Positions 9,385-34,221 of a stretch of DNA of 40,885 nucleotides are shown here, piece after piece. How positions within the stretch are numbered: the stretch's first letter is position 1; each line of letters starts with the position of its first letter. Both the position numbers and the translations under genes were made by a program. Source of the DNA: a virus; the IMG/VR virus record IMGVR_UViG_3300009104_000045, positions 1 to 40,885 of that record; one strand, written 5' to 3'. The notes under the pieces were generated by a model. It worked only from the letters and a program-made list of their open reading frames with translations, was not told where the DNA came from and searched no databases.

Positions 9385-11283
9385 ATGCCAAATGTAAGAA
9401 AAGATGTAAAATATTTAAATAAAGATTTCTCTCAATTTAGAAGTAATCTTATAGAATTTGCAAAACAATATTATCCAAATACACATCAAGATTTTAACGA
9501 ATCATCACCAGGTATGATGTTTATCGAAATGGCATCTTATGTAGGTGATGTTATGTCTTATTATGTTGATTCACAATTTAAAGAATCTTTATTAGGATAT
9601 TCAGAAGAATTAAGAACACTTTATTCAATGGCACAAACCTTTGGTTATAAACCAAGATTATCAGCTCCTTCAAGTGTTAAAATGGAAGTGTTCCAATTAG
9701 TTCCTGCAAAATGAAGTGGTAATAATGTAGAACCAGATTATGATTATACATTAAATATACCAGTTGGAGCGAGAATCGAATCTACTAATGGAACAACATT
9801 TAGAACTACACAAGATTGTAATTTTAAGTATGACTCAATACGGTCACCAAGAAATGTAGAAATATTTGAACGAGATACAAATACACAGACACCCACATTT
9901 TATTTACTTAAAAAAGAAGTTCAGGCTAAAAGTGGTAATGTAGTATCAGAAAACCACACATTTGGTGGAGCAAAAAAATATTCAAGAGTTAAATTATCTA
10001 ATCAAAATGTTATAGAGATAATAAGTGTAAGTGATACAGATGGGAATAGTTGGTATGAAGTTGATTCATTAGCACAAGATACAGTATTTGACGAAACAGA
10101 AAACACTACTAATAATGACCCGACTTTAGCACAATATTCTGGTAGTGCTCCATATTTATTAAAATTAAAAAGAGTAGCAAAAAGATTTACAACATTTAGA
10201 CGACCAGATGCTAGAATGGAATTACGATTTGGAGCAGGAATTTCTGATAATCCAGACGAAGAAATTATTCCAAACCCAGATAATGTAGGTTCAAACTTAT
10301 CAGATAGTCCTACAAAATTATTTGAATCATTCGACCCTACTAATTTCTTAAAAACAAAAACATATGGACAAGCACCAAGTGATACAACATTAACTATAAC
10401 TTATTCATATGGTGGTGGAACGACAGATAATGTTCCTTCTGGTGATATTACAAAGATAGCAGGAATTAGTTTTGAAATAGATACTACTGCATTAAATTTA
10501 ACAACGGTAGAATTAGCAAAACAATCAGTAGCCTTTTCCAATCCTGAAGCATCAAGTGGTGGTCTTGGAGCAGAAACACCAGAAGAATTAAGAGAAAATA
10601 TTAAAGCACATTTCCAAGCACAAGGTAGAACAGTTACAAAGGAAGATTATATTGTAAGAACTTATTCATTACCAGACAAATATGGTAATGTATCGAAAGC
10701 TTATATCGTTCAAGATGATGTTCTATCCGACAACGATACAGAACAACCACAAAAAAATCCATTAGCATTAAACTTATATATTCTTGGATATAATAGTAAT
10801 AAGTTTTTAACAAGTGTTAATGATGCGGTAAAAGAAAATTTAAAAACTTATTTAACAAGATTTAGACCAATTACTGATGCAGTAAATATAAAAGATGGAT
10901 ATGTTATTAATATTGGTGTTAATTATTCAATAGTTACGACAAATAATTCAAATCATCAAGATGTATTACTTAAAGTAAATGATTTAGTTAAGAATTATTT
11001 TGATATTGATAGATGGCAAATAAATCAACCAATTATACTTTCAAGACTACAGAATGAAATAACAAGTATTGAAGGAGTAGCATCAGTTACAAATTTACAA
11101 ATTACAAATAAATATAAAACTGCTGATGGATATGGTGGTAATGTGTATGATATAGATTCAGCAAATAAAGGTGGAATAGTATATCCAGCACTTGACCCAA
11201 GTATCTTTGAATTAAAATATCCATTAAAAGATATTAGTGGTACTGTCGTTGGTGGTGAAAACAATAGTGGAGGACAATACTAA
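9385..11283 (+). CDS. gp6/baseplate-J-like wedge protein, frame interrupted by TGA at codon 110
   Basis: One open frame of 632 residues broken only by TGA at 9712-9714. Before it: KDVKYLNKDFSQFRSNLIEFAKQYYP, SSPGMMFIEMASYVGDVMSYYVD and the YKPRLSAPSS segment, typical of T4-like gp6. After it, with no in-frame ATG until 10216, come DYDYTLNIPVGARIES and then GGLGAETPEELRENIKAHFQ and RTVTKEDYIVR, the baseplate-J core. The full length is close to T4 gp6 (660 residues). A single change from GGA would restore K-G-S-G, which suits this loop. gp6 forms the dimers that hold the wedges together, so the phage needs it; sequence error, recent mutation or readthrough are the options. It overlaps the next gene by one base. 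Confidence 0.82.
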
Positions 11284-25997: not shown

Positions 25998-28900
25998 TTG
26001 AAAAGAACAAGAATTAATATTCCTTTTAAGGAAATTAAATACATACATCACATATCTGATGTTCATATCAGAAATTTAAAACGACACGCAGAATACGAAC
26101 AAGTATTTGAGAAGTTGTATAAAAAAATAGGCGAAAATCGTGAAAATTCCCTTATTTATATCGGTGGAGATATAGCACATTCAAAAACCGATATGTCACC
26201 TGAACTCGTAGACCAAACTTCCCGTTTTCTAAAATCTCTTTCAGAGATTTGTCCTACGATAGTTATTACAGGAAACCACGATTGTAATTTAAATAATAGA
26301 AATAGGTTAGATGTTTTAACACCTATTATTAGTAATTTAAATTTACCAAACCTACATTATCTTAAACACTCTGGTGTTTATGATTGTGGAGATGTGAGCT
26401 TTGTGGTTTGGGATGTATGGGAAGATGAAGAGAACTACATTAAAGCAAAAGATTTTAAAGCCGATACAAAGATTGTTTTATATCACGGTACGGTAGATAG
26501 GTCAAAAACTGATGTAGGATTTTCACTACCAGGTAAGGTTACAATAGATTATTTTGATGATTATGACTTGGGTCTAATAGGTGATATTCATAAAAGACAA
26601 TATTTAAACGAAGAAAAAACTATTGCTTATTGTGGTTCTCTGATTCAACAAAATCACGGGGAAAGTATTGGACACGGATATGTGTTATGGGAAGTTCCAA
26701 CAAGAACAGGAGAATATATTGAAATCCCTAATGATTATGGTTATTATACAATTGATATTGATGATGGAATAGTTCCAGATGTTAAAGGAGTTCCAAAGAA
26801 AGCAAGATTACGAGTTAGAATATCTAATACAGACGGAGCACAATTAAAGAAAGCGTTAGCAGTTATTCATCATAGATACGGAATTAAAGATGTTACCATA
26901 ACACGAGTAGATAGACGAAATAGAGTGAGAGGAGAACATCAAATTGTAATAGGAGATGTTAATGATACAGATTATCAATATGAATTAATAGAGGATTACC
27001 TAAAACGAAATCACACTATTACTGATGAGATGTTGGTAAAGATTAAAAAATTAAATGAAGAAATTAATGATGAATTACCACCAGCAAGAGTTAAAAGAAA
27101 TATAGATTGGAAAATAAAAAAACTTGAATTTTCAAATATGTTTTGTTATGGAGAAAATAATGTAGTAGATTTCACTCAACTTGACGGGATTGTTGGTATG
27201 TTCGCTCCAAATGCTTCTGGTAAGTCAACCTTATTAGATGCTTTATCTTTTTGTTTATTTGATATAACATCACGAACAACGAGAGCGGCTTCAGTTCTAA
27301 ACAACAAGAAAAAGAGTTTTAATTGTAAGGTTAATTTTGAAGTTGGTGGATTAGACTATTATATTGAAAGAAAAGCAACCACAAGAAGTAGAGACGGGCA
27401 TGTGAAAGTAGATGTGAATTTTTGGATGGTTGATGAAGGTGGTGATGTTGTTAGTTTAAATGGTGACCAAAGACGAACTACCAATTATAATATTAATCGT
27501 GTAATTGGAACATATGATGACTTTATTTTATCAACATTATCTACACAAAACAATTTTACCGTCTTTATTGATAAGACACAGAAAGAAAGAAAAGAATTAT
27601 TATCTACATTTATGGGAACAGATATTTTTGATTCCTTATACCAATCAGCAAATGATAGAATTTCAGAAACACAGACCTTATTACGAGATTTTAATAAAAT
27701 AGATTATGGTAAAATGTTAGCAGATTTACAAAAAGAAACTACAATATTAGAAGTAAAACAAACAGATTTACTTAGTAAAAAAGATGACAAAACAAAAATA
27801 TACAATGATTTAAATTCTCAAATTATTAATTTAACGACACAATTAAAACCCGTTGATGATACAATTAGAGATATTAAAGTTCTGAAAAAAGAAAAATTTA
27901 AAAATGAAGAATTACTTGACACCGCACATAATGAAGAGAGTAATGTTGTGACAGAACAATACGACTTATCAGCAGTTATAGATGATTTAAAATCAACAAT
28001 AAAAATTTATGAAAAGGATAATGTTTCAGAAAAATATGCTGAGTTAAAAAAACTTGAACAAGAAAGAAGTTTATTTGAAATAGATTTTGATAAATTAAAA
28101 GCAGAAGTTAAAGTTAAATTAGATAAGAAAGCTAAATTAGATATTTTGGGTTGGGATGATGATTGTAATTATTGTATGAGTAATCCATTTACATTAGAAG
28201 CTATTGAGATTGAAAAAAATCTGCCAAAAGACAAAGAGTTGGTTGTTGAGTATTTAGATAAAGAAAAAGAATTAGATAGTGAAATAAAAAATATGTCTAA
28301 TGTTCGTGCTTTCAAAGAAGAATTAGACAACGCAAAATTACAATTAACTGAAGGTAAATTAAGAGAAGATAATCTTAATTATAGTTTACAATATATTAAT
28401 GAAAGAAAACGAAACATAGAAACTCAAATAGAATCGGTTAGTAATGAAATACAAAGATACAAAGACCAAGAAAATAATGTAAAATATAATGAAAAGATTA
28501 AAACAAAAATAACTAAAAAAGAATTAGAATTATCTGATGTTGATGATAAAATTATTAAACTTAATGAAGATATAACAGAAGTTCATTCAGACATTAAAGT
28601 TAATGATAATGAAATGAAAAACATTAACAAGAAGATAAAAGAGATTGAAGAATTAGAAAAACAAAACCAAGCATACCATTACTATTTAGATGCAGTTAGA
28701 CGAGATAGTATTCCATATGAATTACTTGAAAAAGCAATTCCTACGATTGAAGGTGAAGTCAATAACATTTTAAGTCAATTAGTTGAGTTCCAAATGTCGT
28801 TAGAAATGGACGGTAAAAATATTAATGCTAATATTGTATATGACGACTTAAACGAGTGGCCATTAGAATTATCAAGTGGTATGGAAAGATTTATCAGTTC

Positions 28901-29147
28901 TCTTGCAATGAGAGTTGGTTTAATAAATGTAAGTAATTTACCAAGAAGTAATTTTTTAGCGATTGACGAAGGTTGGGGAACAATGGATAGTGATAATATC
29001 AATTCAGTCTATAATTTATTCCAATATTTAAAGACACAATTCCAATTCGCGTTAATTGTATCGCATGTTGACTCTATGAGAGATGCAGTAGATACACTAT
29101 TAGAAATCTCAAAAGATAGTAGTTTTAGTAGTATTAAATTCGATTAA
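25998..29147 (+). CDS. Fused Mre11-Rad50 (gp47-gp46 / SbcD-SbcC) recombination nuclease
   Basis: 1049 residues, TTG start directly after the primase stop. Residues 1-~230 form a Mre11/SbcD phosphoesterase: SDVHI (Asp21, His23), GGD (58), GNHD (92-95), YHG (163), GDIHK (195-199). From 370 a Rad50/SbcC ATPase follows: Walker A APNASGKST (403-411), a coiled coil with hook CNYC (723-726), signature LSSGMERF (958-965), Walker B FLAIDEGWGTMD (986-997) and VSHVD. In T4 these are separate proteins, gp47 and gp46, which resect DNA ends for recombination-dependent replication. Here nuclease and ATPase are one chain, with a junction near 355-370 and no internal stop. All key residues are intact. Confidence 0.92.
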   Translation: MKRTRINIPFKEIKYIHHISDVHIRNLKRHAEYEQVFEKLYKKIGENRENSLIYIGGDIAHSKTDMSPELVDQTSRFLKSLSEICPTIVITGNHDCNLNNRNRLDVLTPIISNLNLPNLHYLKHSGVYDCGDVSFVVWDVWEDEENYIKAKDFKADTKIVLYHGTVDRSKTDVGFSLPGKVTIDYFDDYDLGLIGDIHKRQYLNEEKTIAYCGSLIQQNHGESIGHGYVLWEVPTRTGEYIEIPNDYGYYTIDIDDGIVPDVKGVPKKARLRVRISNTDGAQLKKALAVIHHRYGIKDVTITRVDRRNRVRGEHQIVIGDVNDTDYQYELIEDYLKRNHTITDEMLVKIKKLNEEINDELPPARVKRNIDWKIKKLEFSNMFCYGENNVVDFTQLDGIVGMFAPNASGKSTLLDALSFCLFDITSRTTRAASVLNNKKKSFNCKVNFEVGGLDYYIERKATTRSRDGHVKVDVNFWMVDEGGDVVSLNGDQRRTTNYNINRVIGTYDDFILSTLSTQNNFTVFIDKTQKERKELLSTFMGTDIFDSLYQSANDRISETQTLLRDFNKIDYGKMLADLQKETTILEVKQTDLLSKKDDKTKIYNDLNSQIINLTTQLKPVDDTIRDIKVLKKEKFKNEELLDTAHNEESNVVTEQYDLSAVIDDLKSTIKIYEKDNVSEKYAELKKLEQERSLFEIDFDKLKAEVKVKLDKKAKLDILGWDDDCNYCMSNPFTLEAIEIEKNLPKDKELVVEYLDKEKELDSEIKNMSNVRAFKEELDNAKLQLTEGKLREDNLNYSLQYINERKRNIETQIESVSNEIQRYKDQENNVKYNEKIKTKITKKELELSDVDDKIIKLNEDITEVHSDIKVNDNEMKNINKKIKEIEELEKQNQAYHYYLDAVRRDSIPYELLEKAIPTIEGEVNNILSQLVEFQMSLEMDGKNINANIVYDDLNEWPLELSSGMERFISSLAMRVGLINVSNLPRSNFLAIDEGWGTMDSDNINSVYNLFQYLKTQFQFALIVSHVDSMRDAVDTLLEISKDSSFSSIKFD

Positions 29148-29184
29148 TCGTGGTTTTATTGATGCTGCAAGGAGAAAAAATGTA

Positions 29185-29722
29185 TTTTGGGCAAAGTAGC
29201 TTATATATATATATGTAATAACAAAATAGTTATTTGACAATTGGAATTGGAAAGTATCAAGACCGTACATCTTGATATGGGATTGACCGAAAAATGAGTA
29301 ACCAATGGAAGCTCATAAGGTAATCCGCTGTAGAGTTGTGGTAACTCAATCGGTGCTAAATATTGTATCGGTTTTCTTTGACAAAAGATACAGAATGTAT
29401 TTCCGTAAAACAATAGAAAATGATTCTATTGACTTCATTTTGGGTAGGGTAAAACCAAATCCCAACTTGTGACAGAATTAAGCTACTCTTGGAGAGCTAA
29501 TGTAATCACATAGGAGTTGTATCCACTTTAATGACTTTAACCAAGTTGAGAAGAACTTTTGTAACTGAAAGATGTGAGGTATGAAGTAATAATAAATCCA
29601 AGACGGAAATTGTAGGTAATCATTAGTCCTACATCCCCACATAATTCCATAAGATTTTTGGAGAACCCAAGATTTTCAGTTTCCACCTATATACAAACTT
29701 GAGAACACGGGTTCTCTTTTTA
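29185..29722 (+). ncRNA. Large structured RNA (about 540 nt), family unknown
   Basis: No credible protein frame, but dense complementary pairs. Long-range: CAAAGTAGCTTA (29192-29203) with TAAGCTACTCTTG (29479-29491), 12 pairs plus one bulged C. 3' domain, nested: AACTGAAA (29563-29570)/TTTCAGTT (29674-29681), ATGTGAGG (29572-29579)/CCCCACAT (29635-29642, one mismatch), TGTAGG (29611-29616)/CCTACA (29628-29633). Local stems: 29217-29234, 29255-29277 (8 bp), 29333-29347, 29411-29431 (8 bp) and 29543-29558. It ends in an intrinsic terminator. Size and ornateness resemble phage RNAs such as ROOL or GOLLD, but I cannot assign a family. Boundaries, especially 5', are approximate. No obvious own promoter; transcription may come from upstream. 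Confidence 0.65.
29701..29721 (+). terminator. Intrinsic terminator of the large RNA
   Basis: GAGAAC (29701-29706), loop ACGG, GTTCTC (29711-29716), followed by TTTTTATAT. A compact 6 bp stem with a T-rich tail that ends the large structured RNA. Confidence 0.75.
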
Positions 29723-29747
29723 TATAATAAAAAAACAAACATAGGAT

Positions 29748-29984
29748 GTTAGAATGATAATACAAGAAAAAAGAGAATCGTATTGAATATTCGATACGAA
29801 TAATAGAGGCAGGCAAGACAAGCCGTAAGTCCAGAGACAAAGAAAAGAGCCCCTTTGAGGTGTGTCCATATCGTTGTGATATGGAAACGATTGAAATATC
29901 GTTGTGAAGACAAGTCTTAAATGCTAGTCAATAGACCACAATCAAGGAGCAGGAGAAAACCAGAAACACATTATCATCCTAAAC
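29748..29984 (+). ncRNA. Second structured RNA (about 240 nt), family unknown
   Basis: A closing helix joins AGAATGATAAT (29751-29761) to ATTATCATCCT (29970-29980), 10 of 11 positions paired, extended by GTT/AAC across a bulge. Inside are strong local stems: 29778-29799 (9 bp, loop ATAT), 29865-29885 (8 bp, TCCATATC/GATATGGA), 29886-29903 (6 bp, AACGAT/ATCGTT) and a weaker 29838-29857. The second and third are contiguous and would stack. No coding frame of note. It does not match tRNA, tmRNA, RNase P or 6S patterns that I know. From 29985 to 30100 I see only an A-rich stretch and a weak hairpin (30061-30080). Confidence 0.55.
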
Positions 29985-30100
29985 TTCCAGAATCACTTGC
30001 TTAAAACCCCAAAAATAACACAAAAATCAGAGAAAAAAATTTTATGAGAAAAAACTTCTACGAAACCAGTATAGGTTTTGTAATTAATAACAAAAAGCAG

Positions 30101-30129
30101 TTGACTTTAAGAAAAGGCTATATTATATT
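30101..30129 (+). promoter_or_regulatory. Sigma70-like promoter
   Basis: TTGACT (30101-30106), 17 bp, TATATT (30124-30129), with AAAAAGCAG before the -35 box. Transcription would start near 30136, one or two bases before the zinc-ribbon ATG, so the message would be leaderless. Confidence 0.7.
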
Positions 30130-30137
30130 AGAATATT

Positions 30138-30272
30138 ATGAAAATTTGTCCAAGATGTAAAAAGAAACACAAAGATGAGATGATTTTACACCCGAAACAT
30201 TGTTTTAAGTGCGTTTTAGATATGCACGCGAATTATGTTGAAAAAAAAAGTAAAAAAGCTCTTGACTCTTAA
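30138..30272 (+). CDS. Zinc-ribbon microprotein (44 residues)
   Basis: A 44-residue protein with two metal-knuckle motifs, CPRC (residues 4-7) and CFKC (23-26), 15 residues apart, in a Lys/His-rich chain: the form of a small zinc ribbon that binds nucleic acid or a host protein. A consensus promoter ends eight bases before the ATG, which supports expression and implies a leaderless transcript. The last codons (KKALDS) contain the -35 region of the next promoter. Phage zinc-ribbon microproteins often act on host RNA polymerase or nucleases, but nothing specific is shown here. Confidence 0.65.
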   Translation: MKICPRCKKKHKDEMILHPKHCFKCVLDMHANYVEKKSKKALDS

Positions 30273-30290
30273 TGCTAGGGCAGTTATATT
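30262..30290 (+). promoter_or_regulatory. Sigma70-like promoter
   Basis: TTGACT (30262-30267), 17 bp, TATATT (30285-30290), with AAAAAAGCTC before it. It overlaps the stop of the zinc-ribbon gene and would start transcripts near 30297, upstream of the gene at 30311. Confidence 0.75.
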
Positions 30291-30310
30291 ATGTAAAAAG
30301 GAGAGATATT

Positions 30311-30514
30311 ATGGTTGAAAAAATTAAACAATTATTAGATACATTAGAACAAGAGATTACAGACGGATATAATACTTTACCAGAGTATGATAAAAATACT
30401 GAAGGTAAGGGTTATATTAATCTGGCTCAGAACACTTTGTATAAATTACAAAAAGAAATAGAAACTTTGGAACAAGGATTAGAACAAGGTAAAAATTTTT
30501 CATTATTGGGGTAA
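30311..30514 (+). CDS. Hypothetical 67-residue helical protein
   Basis: From the ATG at 30311 behind AGGAGAG. An upstream ATG at 30272 is in frame but lies inside the promoter and would not be transcribed from it. The protein is mostly helix with a likely coiled coil at both ends (EKIKQLLDTLEQEI, YKLQKEIETLEQGLEQG) around a short loop, i.e. a helical hairpin. Three bases separate it from the next gene. Function unknown; early-type expression. Confidence 0.6.
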   Translation: MVEKIKQLLDTLEQEITDGYNTLPEYDKNTEGKGYINLAQNTLYKLQKEIETLEQGLEQGKNFSLLG

Positions 30515-30843: not shown

Positions 30844-32976
30844 ATGAGATATAACAAACAGAACAATTTTTCGTCTTTCTGGTTGGGTGATACTTTTGAG
30901 AATAAATCACTCATAGAAAACGAACAAGAAAAACCAAAAGTTGACTATATTAAGTTAGCCTCTTATCAAAGAGCGATTTCTAACTTTGTCAATATTGTAA
31001 CTGCTAAGAATATCCCTGTTAAGTTCTCAAAAAGAGGCGATAGTTATACAGACGGGGAAGTTGTTACAATTTCTTCTAAACTTGATGATAAATTATTTGA
31101 TAGTTCAGTTGGATTAGCACTTCACGAAGGTTCTCACATTTTACTTTCTGATTTTGCTTTTCTAAAAACACTTGGTTCAACTATTCCAAAAACCTTTTAT
31201 AAGTTAGCGAATAGTAAAGGTTTAACAAATATGGAAGCTAAAACACTTGTCAAACATATGTTGAATTATGTTGAAGACAGGAGAATTGATAATTATGTTA
31301 TCACTACTTCCCCTGGTTATAAAGGTTATTATTTATCTATGTATGACAAATATTTTCATAGTCCAACGGTAGACAAAGGACTAAAATCAGCAGACGAGAT
31401 GAGAGAAAAAAATCTTGATAGTTATTTATTTAGAATTATTAATTTTACTAATGTAAATACTGATTTAGATGCTCTACCTGGTCTAAGAGAACTTTGGAAC
31501 AAGATAGATTTAAGAAATATTTCAAGATTAACTACTACTGGAAAAGCTTATCAAGTAGCATATGATATGTCCAAAATTATTCTGAATAATTTGGATACGA
31601 TTAATAGTGATGACAAATTTAATGAAATCAAGAAAAAACTTAATCAAGGATTAAAAGAAGCACAAGATAATGATGATGATGATATGGTTAATGATTTCGC
31701 CGCTGAAAGAATTAAACAATTTATTGATAAGTTTTCAGAGAATATGAGTTATGAAGATTTATTAAATTCAGTTGAAGTGGAAGCAGGTTATTTAGGTGAT
31801 AATGGAAAATTAGAAAAACAAATTCAAGATATGAAACAGAGTTTGTTTTCAGGTTTATCAGATGCTCAGAAATCTGAATTAAGAAAAAAAATTGAAAGAG
31901 TATTAGAGAAACAGAAAAAGTTCTTGGAAGGAAAAATCACAAAAAGAAAACTTTCCAAAAAAGATATTCAACAAGTAGAAGCCGTTTCAGAGTCTGGAAC
32001 TACTTATAAAGATGTTTTGAATGATAATAAACATAAACATCTACAATCAAATAGATATAGAGCTACTGGAGATTCAAAAGTTATTGTTGTAAAGAACTTA
32101 ACAAAATCATTAATTGATAGTGATATGTTTCCAAATTTACTTGCGGATAGTCGTGGTTATTGGAATCACAATGATAAACAAGCTATAGTTCTTGAAGGTT
32201 TAAGACTTGGTAAAATGTTAGGTAAAAAATTGCAAATTCGTGGGGAACAAAGATTATTAAAAAATACAAGATTAAAAAGTGGTAGAATTGATAAAAGACT
32301 TGTTGCAGAACTTGGGTTCAATAACGAAAGTGTTTTCCACAATATTGATATTGAAAAATATCCAGACGGGTTCTTACACATTTCTTTGGATGCAAGTGGT
32401 AGTATGTATGGTAGTAGTTTTGATAACTCATTAACTTGTGCTATTGCTATTATTCAAGCCGTTGATATGATACAAAACTTTGATGTAGTATTTACATTAA
32501 GAGGAACTTCATCAAAATATTCAGGTGGAGCTGATGTTCCAGTTATTCTCTATGCTTATGATAGTAGAGTTGATAAGATTTCAAAAGTTAGAAAACTATT
32601 TAGATACTTATCTTGTGGTTCAACTACTCCTGAAGGATTATGTTATGAAGCGATTATGGAAGAAATGATTTATACTACTGATAAAGTAGATAGTTATTTC
32701 TTGAACTTTTCAGACGGAATGCCAATGTATTCAAATGATGAAATGTATTATAGTGGTGAAGAAGCAAGAATTCACACCAGAGATATGGTTAATAAAATGA
32801 GAAAAATGGGAATTAATGTTTTATCATACTTCATTTCAAAATATGAAAGTGATGATGATAGTAGGTATATGGGAGATTTTAAACAAATGTATGGTTCGGA
32901 TGCAGAACAGATTAATATTCTTTCAATTCCACAAGTAGCAAAAACAATGAATAATTTATTTTTGAGAAAAAAGTGA
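30844..32976 (+). CDS. Metallopeptidase-like plus VWA domain protein (CobT/DUF2201-like)
   Basis: 710 residues. N-terminal metallopeptidase-like part: GLALHEGSHILLSDF with HEGSH at 94-98 and a probable third ligand Glu144 in NYVEDRRID. A charged helical linker (about 255-380), then a C-terminal von Willebrand A domain with a full MIDAS: DASGS (516-520), Thr594/Thr595 in CGSTTPEG and Asp624 in FSDGMP. VWA proteins of this type work with MoxR-family AAA+ ATPases, and such a gene follows directly. The pair is comparable to CobS-CobT and RavA-ViaA. It may remodel or proteolyse a host or phage protein complex. Only about 3 bases separate the predicted transcript start from the ATG. Confidence 0.8.
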   Translation: MRYNKQNNFSSFWLGDTFENKSLIENEQEKPKVDYIKLASYQRAISNFVNIVTAKNIPVKFSKRGDSYTDGEVVTISSKLDDKLFDSSVGLALHEGSHILLSDFAFLKTLGSTIPKTFYKLANSKGLTNMEAKTLVKHMLNYVEDRRIDNYVITTSPGYKGYYLSMYDKYFHSPTVDKGLKSADEMREKNLDSYLFRIINFTNVNTDLDALPGLRELWNKIDLRNISRLTTTGKAYQVAYDMSKIILNNLDTINSDDKFNEIKKKLNQGLKEAQDNDDDDMVNDFAAERIKQFIDKFSENMSYEDLLNSVEVEAGYLGDNGKLEKQIQDMKQSLFSGLSDAQKSELRKKIERVLEKQKKFLEGKITKRKLSKKDIQQVEAVSESGTTYKDVLNDNKHKHLQSNRYRATGDSKVIVVKNLTKSLIDSDMFPNLLADSRGYWNHNDKQAIVLEGLRLGKMLGKKLQIRGEQRLLKNTRLKSGRIDKRLVAELGFNNESVFHNIDIEKYPDGFLHISLDASGSMYGSSFDNSLTCAIAIIQAVDMIQNFDVVFTLRGTSSKYSGGADVPVILYAYDSRVDKISKVRKLFRYLSCGSTTPEGLCYEAIMEEMIYTTDKVDSYFLNFSDGMPMYSNDEMYYSGEEARIHTRDMVNKMRKMGINVLSYFISKYESDDDSRYMGDFKQMYGSDAEQINILSIPQVAKTMNNLFLRKK

Positions 32977-33020: not shown

Positions 33021-33059
33021 ATGATGATTAATAAAAAGAAAAGGATAACCAATGAATAA
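33021..33059 (+). CDS. Possible 12-residue leader peptide
   Basis: ATGATG at the predicted transcript start (33020-33021) opens a 12-codon frame, MMINKKKRITNE, whose stop overlaps the start of the AAA+ gene (33052). Its codons contain the AAGGATA ribosome site of that gene. It could couple translation, or be chance in AT-rich sequence. Confidence 0.25.
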   Translation: MMINKKKRITNE

Positions 33060-34221
33060 CTTAGTTGTAAAAATTGAGAAATCTGGAAACAGATATAATG
33101 CTTGGGACATTAATGGTAACAAGTATACTTCTCAAATTTCAATTGGTGCTCGTAAGAAAGCTTTCGAGAATGGAACAGCTCTTGAACAAAGAGTTAATAA
33201 AGCTGGTAAAAATTACTGGTGGGCAGTTCCTATGTCGGAGTTTGAAGTGAATTCAATCCCAGTTAATACTGGTGATATTGAAGTTCCACAAGAACACCAA
33301 GAAGTTCTAAATTATATCCATAGTTCTTATTCACTTAAACCTGTTGGTTTAGTTATGAATGAGTTGAAATGGAAATATTTAGTTCGTTCCGCAGTTCGTG
33401 GTAAAAATATTATGATGACCGGCCCCGCTGGTTGTGGTAAGACACTTGCTGCTAAATCTCTGGTAAACGCGTTAGAGCGTCCAGATTTCTACTTTAATTT
33501 AGGTGCTACTCAAGACCCGAGAGCTACCTTAATCGGTAATGTTCACTTTGAGAAATCAAAAGGAACTTACTTTTCAGAATCACTTTTTGTGAAAGCAATT
33601 CAAACACCAAATGCAGTGATACTTCTTGATGAGTTAAGTAGAGCTCACCCTGAAGCCTGGAATATTCTGATGACCGTTTTAGATAGTGGTCAAAGATATT
33701 TAAGACTTGATGAACAAGATGGTCAAGCGACTATTAATGTTGCTGAGGGCGTTACTTTCGTAGCGACTGCGAATATCGGTAATGAATATACTTCCACAAG
33801 AGTTTTAGATAAAGCGTTAATGGACAGATTTACCATTATTGAAATGGATGTCCTGAACAATACAGAAGAGTTAGGATTACTTCAATATATGTTTCCTAAT
33901 GTTGATATTGAATCGTTAGACGCTGTTTCTCAAATTTCACACCAAACAAGAGTTGAAGCCTCTAATGAAAATCCAAAGATTTCTAATGGAATTTCTACGA
34001 GAACTTCGGTTGAGATTTCTGGACTATTGTTTGACGGATTTTCACTTCCTGAAGCGTCCGAAATTACAATTTATCCACAATACTCAAATGATGGTGGTTT
34101 AGATTCTGAAAGAACTTATGTGAAGCAGTTAGTTCAAAAGTTCATCAAAGATGACAGAACAGCTGATGAAAGTTTATTCAACGAAGACGAAGTTGAAGGT
34201 TCAGATGATTTAGACTACTAA
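33052..34221 (+). CDS. MoxR/CobS-like AAA+ ATPase
   Basis: 389 residues. An N-terminal 75-residue non-ATPase part; then the AAA+ core: Walker A GPAGCGKT (124-131), Walker B ILLDE (190-194), sensor-1 Asn241 in ATANIG, and Arg residues in STRVLDKALMDRF (248-260) fitting the arginine finger. The segment LGATQDPRATLIGNVHF matches the MoxR/CobS helix-insert region. Phage CobS-like proteins are common in T4-like cyanophages. Here it stands directly after the VWA-metallopeptidase gene, its probable partner, with a near-identical promoter. Likely a hexameric chaperone-like motor in the cytoplasm. Confidence 0.87.
   Translation: MNNLVVKIEKSGNRYNAWDINGNKYTSQISIGARKKAFENGTALEQRVNKAGKNYWWAVPMSEFEVNSIPVNTGDIEVPQEHQEVLNYIHSSYSLKPVGLVMNELKWKYLVRSAVRGKNIMMTGPAGCGKTLAAKSLVNALERPDFYFNLGATQDPRATLIGNVHFEKSKGTYFSESLFVKAIQTPNAVILLDELSRAHPEAWNILMTVLDSGQRYLRLDEQDGQATINVAEGVTFVATANIGNEYTSTRVLDKALMDRFTIIEMDVLNNTEELGLLQYMFPNVDIESLDAVSQISHQTRVEASNENPKISNGISTRTSVEISGLLFDGFSLPEASEITIYPQYSNDGGLDSERTYVKQLVQKFIKDDRTADESLFNEDEVEGSDDLDY

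Follow-up and report, generated by a model that had tools for sequence, protein, structure and literature searches.

A composite manA RNA in a viral genome, with an additional half-copy nested in one arm

The window analysed here, a 40,885-nt stretch of viral DNA (IMG/VR record IMGVR_UViG_3300009104_000045), holds at 29185-29722 a gene for a large, strongly structured non-coding RNA, with an SbcC/D-like gene (25998-29147) upstream of it and a series of small genes downstream; the RNA gene and its parts lie on the plus strand. Examination of the open reading frames revealed no credible protein frame anywhere in this interval, as an earlier, sequence-only reading had claimed, and conservation across the RNA tracks base pairs instead. 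The ornate folding described in that reading is likewise borne out by the folding energy, which reaches -130.5 kcal/mol compared with -110.4 ± 5.8 kcal/mol in shuffled sequences (z = -3.5). We identify the RNA as a composite manA, that is, an outer manA copy in one of whose arms a further, incomplete manA copy is nested, and consider this near certain with regard to both structure and family. The manA family itself is known and functionally unexplained; what is new here is the architectural variant. The carrier is a marine phage, and the RNA is likely free-standing, with a size of ~430-500 nt.

Scanning the whole window against 4227 Rfam families yielded no family above threshold other than manA (RF01745), which matches 29443-29637 with 60.3 bits (cut-off, 55.2 bits). 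A permissive scan placed a weak manA match just upstream, at 29255-29440 (20.1 bits, E = 0.013), with a counterpart in the corresponding position of two relatives (25 and 22.7 bits); besides manA, the scan of 29100-30350 at E ≤ 10 gave chance-level matches only. ROOL, GOLLD, HEARO and OLE, as well as group I and group II introns, showed no covariance-model match at gathering score in the window or at E ≤ 10 within 29100-30350. Of the two options raised by the sequence-only reading, membership in ROOL or GOLLD thus falls away, as the Rfam models give manA only, and a new class holds only in the sense of a manA variant. Among 20 sampled relatives, 19 passed the manA gathering score. Three relatives lie slightly under the cut-off (51.0, 53.7 and 53.7 bits). 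The manA consensus helices P1, P2, P3, P4, P8 and P9 were all found in the composite RNA, with compensatory changes in each of them except the invariant P2. P8 and P2 form across the two Rfam matches, and the match at 29443-29637 is a hybrid, consisting of the inner P1', P3' and P4' together with the 3' strand of the outer P8 and P9.

The first relatives were reached through relatives of the SbcC/D protein and of a 710-aa protein encoded at 30844-32976, and the contigs obtained by these two routes carry the same arrangement. The 710-aa protein has no Pfam or PHROG match; its relatives come from 42 viral contigs, Microcystis phage Mel-JY01 and an uncultured phage of 484 kb, and its gene adjoins a CobS/MoxR-like ATPase gene (33052-34221). 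Searching with a DNA pattern drawn from the initial portion of the RNA retrieved 88 viral contigs. In all 79 loci with enough sequence, a distance of 349-364 nt separates GGGATTG from the downstream CATCCC, indicating that the composite form is constant. In bacteria and archaea (84,980 genomes), the composite pattern matched twice, and both matches were dismissed as chance since no further part of the RNA is present in their flanks; a nucleotide BLAST comparison with phage genomes matched nothing.

When 59 unique sequences (effective number, 25) were scanned de novo for covariation, all of the top 16 column pairs proved to be base pairs, many of them long-range, and RNAalifold, run without our model, gave the same nested helices. 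We then counted a 97-pair model on 38 non-redundant sequences, using slid partners, which preserve relatedness, and shuffles, which do not, as controls. Because the pairs had been chosen and extended on these same sequences, the fraction of paired cells (98.6% versus 36-42% with slid partners) and the covariation score (0.488 versus 0.07-0.09 slid and 0.18 shuffled) are somewhat favoured; the number of compensatory cells, in turn, is far beyond the effect of pair choice alone (608 versus 169 ± 12.5 in shuffles). Covariation across homologous viral loci, the check proposed by the sequence-only reading, revealed compensatory changes in nearly all helices, including nearly all of the local hairpins (at least five) and nested helices listed there, and its proposal of a large, ornate, functional phage RNA receives very strong support over the 88 contigs. 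The 12-pair helix over almost 300 nt that it also described, without coordinates, was not found in the region: the longest unbroken long-range complements have 11 pairs spanning 440 nt and 9 pairs spanning 292 nt (29195-29203/29479-29487), and neither appeared among the covarying pairs of the de novo scan. The actual long-range helices are shorter than 12 pairs (P8 with eight, B with seven and P2 with four, plus the probable P0).

Our INTERPRETING of the structure is that the outer RNA constitutes a complete manA scaffold, comprising P1, P2, P3, P4, P8 with its hairpin, P9 and the kissing loop. The core (29241-29649) is probably closed by the outer helix P0, formed by 29241-29248 (TTGGAATT) and 29643-29649 (AATTCCA). 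P0 was judged by duplex energies, the longest-complement test being blunted by A+T richness; its own arms reach -8.0 compared with -6.6 ± 0.34 for swapped arms, with none of 2000 as good. Upstream of the core, an optional hairpin (AATAAC/GTTATT, 29218-29234) is predicted in the window; many relatives carry a hairpin with a different stem sequence in this place, and L140 and L158 carry none. Following the P1 hairpin (29254-29278; double changes at three pairs, 98.7% paired), the four-pair closing helix P2 (GGGA at 29279-29282 with TCCC at 29634-29637) encloses both copies and shows no covariation because it is invariant in 38 of 38 sequences. P3 and its hairpin span 29286-29321, with double changes in all three P3 pairs, and the P4 arm spans 29328-29393, including a hairpin at 29376-29387, with double changes in 5/5 and 4/4 pairs. 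P8 (29399-29406 with 29603-29610) shows double changes in six of eight pairs and carries the inserted second copy. The loop (29420-29425) of the P8 hairpin (29411-29430) kisses the loop (29618-29623) of the P9 hairpin (29611-29633), which is itself 100% paired with double changes in two pairs; within the kissing helix, two pairs show double changes and three never vary (98.7% paired). Applying the same method to 107 canonical manA sequences of phage and phage-contig origin recovered P8 and the contact between the P8-hairpin loop and the P9 loop, with the canonical kissing pair 146-179 covarying. This covariation establishes the homology of the composite RNA's arms, and the composite P8 is homologous to the canonical P8.

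The second P1-P3-P4 half sits inside P8, after the P8 hairpin and behind a new helix B (29432-29438 with 29581-29587; double changes in five of seven pairs), which closes the inner copy. This inner half (29440-29577) is made up of P1' (29440-29465), P3' (29472-29503) and P4' (29506-29577, with P5', P6' and P7'), with 97-100% of cells paired and double changes in every helix. Because it was duplicated into the outer P8 arm behind B, the copies share P2, P8 and P9. The P3' loop forms a pseudoknot (29488-29493 with 29597-29602; double changes in two pairs) that occurs as CTTGG/CCAAG, CTCAG/CTGAG or CTCTG/CAGAG, and a loop-loop contact between the copies (29381-29383 with 29518-29520) joins an outer P4-arm loop to an inner loop, being paired in 38 of 38 sequences with C-G replaced by U-A in four. 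By covariation, such contacts between the copies make the RNA an intramolecular pseudo-dimer. An invariant UGGU in the outer P5 loop and a nearly invariant ACCA in the inner copy could pair reciprocally to the 29381-29383 contact, a pairing that we only infer, since both strands hardly vary.

The back-to-back position of the two Rfam matches might also be taken to indicate two independent manA RNAs in tandem, akin to tandem riboswitch aptamers. P8, however, pairs across both matches, and compensatory changes support three further pairings across the boundary, namely helix B, the kissing loop and the 29381-29383/29518-29520 contact. In addition, the 29443-29637 match lacks its own GGG strand and the 29255-29440 match lacks a CCC strand. 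Cross-boundary covariation therefore rules out two separate tandem RNAs, and we give such an arrangement hardly any credence.

The composite RNA appears to be its own transcription unit. At its upstream end lies a promoter-like element (29185-29216), consisting of TTTTGGG (29185-29191) followed by a box of AT repeats (29202-29216); among relatives, TTTTGRG precedes the RNA in 19 of 38 sequences and TATATATA in 26 of 38. Judged from these motifs, the element may well function as a promoter. A sigma-70 promoter for the composite RNA was rejected, as a consensus of at least 10/12 was found in 7/53 only; in 106/111 canonical loci, a sigma-70 promoter close to consensus sits immediately at the 5' end of manA. 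On the 3' side, the intrinsic terminator noted by the sequence-only reading is present at 29660-29722, as a hairpin (29660-29668/29709-29717) ending at ~29717, after which comes a T run. The same combination of hairpin and T run is found 3' of the RNA in 45 of 53 distinct composite loci, compared with 4.5% of random windows, and a simpler terminator scan detected it in 72/79 composite loci. The terminator arms covary with their own partner (0/2000 permutations as good) and, in a permutation test, matched their own core no better than expected by chance; attenuation through terminator-core pairing thus left no signal. Since the arms pair with each other and not with the core, the terminator looks constitutive, unlike a riboswitch expression platform. 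Just downstream of canonical manA, 65% of loci have no terminator; this figure and the non-consensus promoter of the composite RNA count against the stand-alone reading.

In the window, the terminator is followed by about 400 nt without a long frame. Directly downstream lies a second conserved non-coding block (29740-30060), common only to the close relatives L112, L128, L144 and L157, which begins with a ribosome-binding site and a frame of 10-12 codons (MIIQEKRESY; MMTIKINQEFIE in relatives), continues with a structured stretch (z = -3.4) and has no Rfam match. Within it, 29914-29930 holds TCTTAAATGCTAGTC, nearly identical to the gp32 start in L090, L102 and L103 (GACTTAAATGCTATTC); the likeness may be coincidental or mark what is left of a gp32 gene since lost. 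Two sigma-70-like promoters (TTGACT-17-TATATT; 30101-30129 and 30262-30290) precede small genes, and a similar sequence recurs at about 32967.

Upstream of the composite RNA, genes of many families are found; in the window's clade, SbcC/D lies upstream and unrelated small genes downstream. On the downstream side, gp32, recognized by the PF08804 profile, directly follows the RNA in at least 47 of 79 loci; in seven further loci a methyltransferase-like gene intervenes between RNA and gp32, and in two hsp20 does. Canonical manA is followed by 37 gene families in 104 loci, gp32 being the commonest (21/104) and transaldolase and hsp20 also occurring, so that hsp20 recurs downstream of both forms; methyltransferase, transaldolase, hsp20 and the gp32 of the canonical clusters were named by reading sequences, without a profile search. 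Together with the Cis-reg class assigned by Rfam and the proposal made in 2010 (PMC2864571), the gp32 and hsp20 neighbours favour a cis-regulatory leader, either riboswitch-like or for autogenous gp32 control, whose terminator would act as an attenuator of the next gene, usually gp32. We regard this as a serious but unlikely alternative. The indifference of the terminator arms to their own core and the 37 families downstream of canonical manA argue against it, and the RNA and mostly also the terminator are kept where the next gene is not gp32, as is the case for the window's clade and for contigs of the L017/L018/L025 type. Moreover, gp32 was not found in 10 of 11 records searched, which are incomplete and belong to groups with non-adjacent gp32. 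A conserved element between terminator and gp32, present in 17 of 33 gp32 leaders but without a single occurrence in 351 kb of background sequence, suggests that gp32 has its own promoter. A promoter motif common to RNA and gp32 found no support, the gp32-leader motif occurring in only 3 of 52 RNA upstream regions. In phage genomes with a bias to one strand, any free-standing RNA resembles a 5' UTR, which may have fed the cis-regulatory label.

We therefore favour, at a probability of roughly 0.6, a stand-alone composite manA with its own promoter and a constitutive terminator, most likely acting in trans. Transcription would start at the putative upstream promoter, probably of a phage-specific type, and end at the RNA's own constitutive terminator, the presence of which is shown by comparison. 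The RNA would then work in trans during infection as a folded particle that binds a protein or small molecule. The recurrent gp32 and hsp20 neighbours may point to replication-phase or stress physiology, making gp32 the first candidate partner. Stand-alone, trans-acting status is likely, as inferred from the above; the broader proposition, a distinct large phage RNA that became its own dimer by self-insertion and acts in trans, within a manA family of mainly free-standing phage RNAs, we hold at even odds.

Canonical manA has a tRNA gene within 400 nt in 11 of 120 cases (4-18 nt away where downstream). In S-CREM1, which carries one manA (PMC9964418), the RNA (10215-10429; L063 1716-1930) is wedged between tRNA-Leu and tRNA-Asn, and in S-SSM7 (151363-151563; L079) it ends where tRNA-Gly begins; in both phages it abuts the tRNA genes without a gap, and manA ends could thus come from tRNA processing. 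Within ~20 nt 3' of canonical manA, several contigs (for example, L185, L187 and L197) carry a hairpin, AGACCTAAGATGCAAC...GGGCAGATGGTCT, possibly another unnamed RNA element or a terminator. ROOL and GOLLD likewise lie near tRNA islands (PMC12286853), and this parallel, together with the size, ornate structure, loop-loop contacts and phage origin of the composite RNA, would fit self-assembly into a homo-oligomer or cage, as seen for those two RNAs. With no sequence or structural membership in ROOL or GOLLD and with kissing partners that lie within one molecule, we deem this highly improbable.

For the stand-alone, trans-acting reading, the promoters, terminators, tRNA-island positions and shifting neighbours of manA suggest that many of these RNAs act in trans. 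A large phage RNA present on at least 88 viral contigs, annotated by Rfam only by half and near threshold, gains a covariation-supported secondary structure; its recurring gp32 neighbour provides a concrete candidate partner, and the question of manA function becomes testable.

The 2010 description of manA presented it as a candidate riboswitch, found mainly in marine samples and with mixed downstream genes (PMC2864571); Rfam 14 brought a corrected model (PMC7779021). The literature found, with subscription literature mostly outside the search, reports no function, ligand or composite form. Canonical manA of Prochlorococcus and Synechococcus phages shares with the composite form P1, P2, P3, P4, P8 with its hairpin, P9 and the P8/P9 kissing contact, as well as phage origin and usually a single copy per record. 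The composite RNA differs by the additional P1-P3-P4 half in P8, helix B, the P3'-loop pseudoknot, the inter-copy loop contact and the conserved terminator hairpin; it is about 400 nt long, compared with 190 nt for canonical manA, and scores 51-73 bits in Rfam, compared with 124-184 in five Prochlorococcus/Synechococcus phages and 97 in S-CREM1. GOLLD and ROOL resemble the composite manA in being large, ornate, phage-encoded and functionally unexplained, but the composite RNA has no Rfam match to them, is unrelated in structure and is smaller. The T4 gene 32 mRNA leader contains a pseudoknot and, like the composite manA in many relatives, represents a structured RNA upstream of gp32; the composite RNA, in contrast, is far larger, ends in a terminator before gp32 and is kept even without an adjacent gp32.
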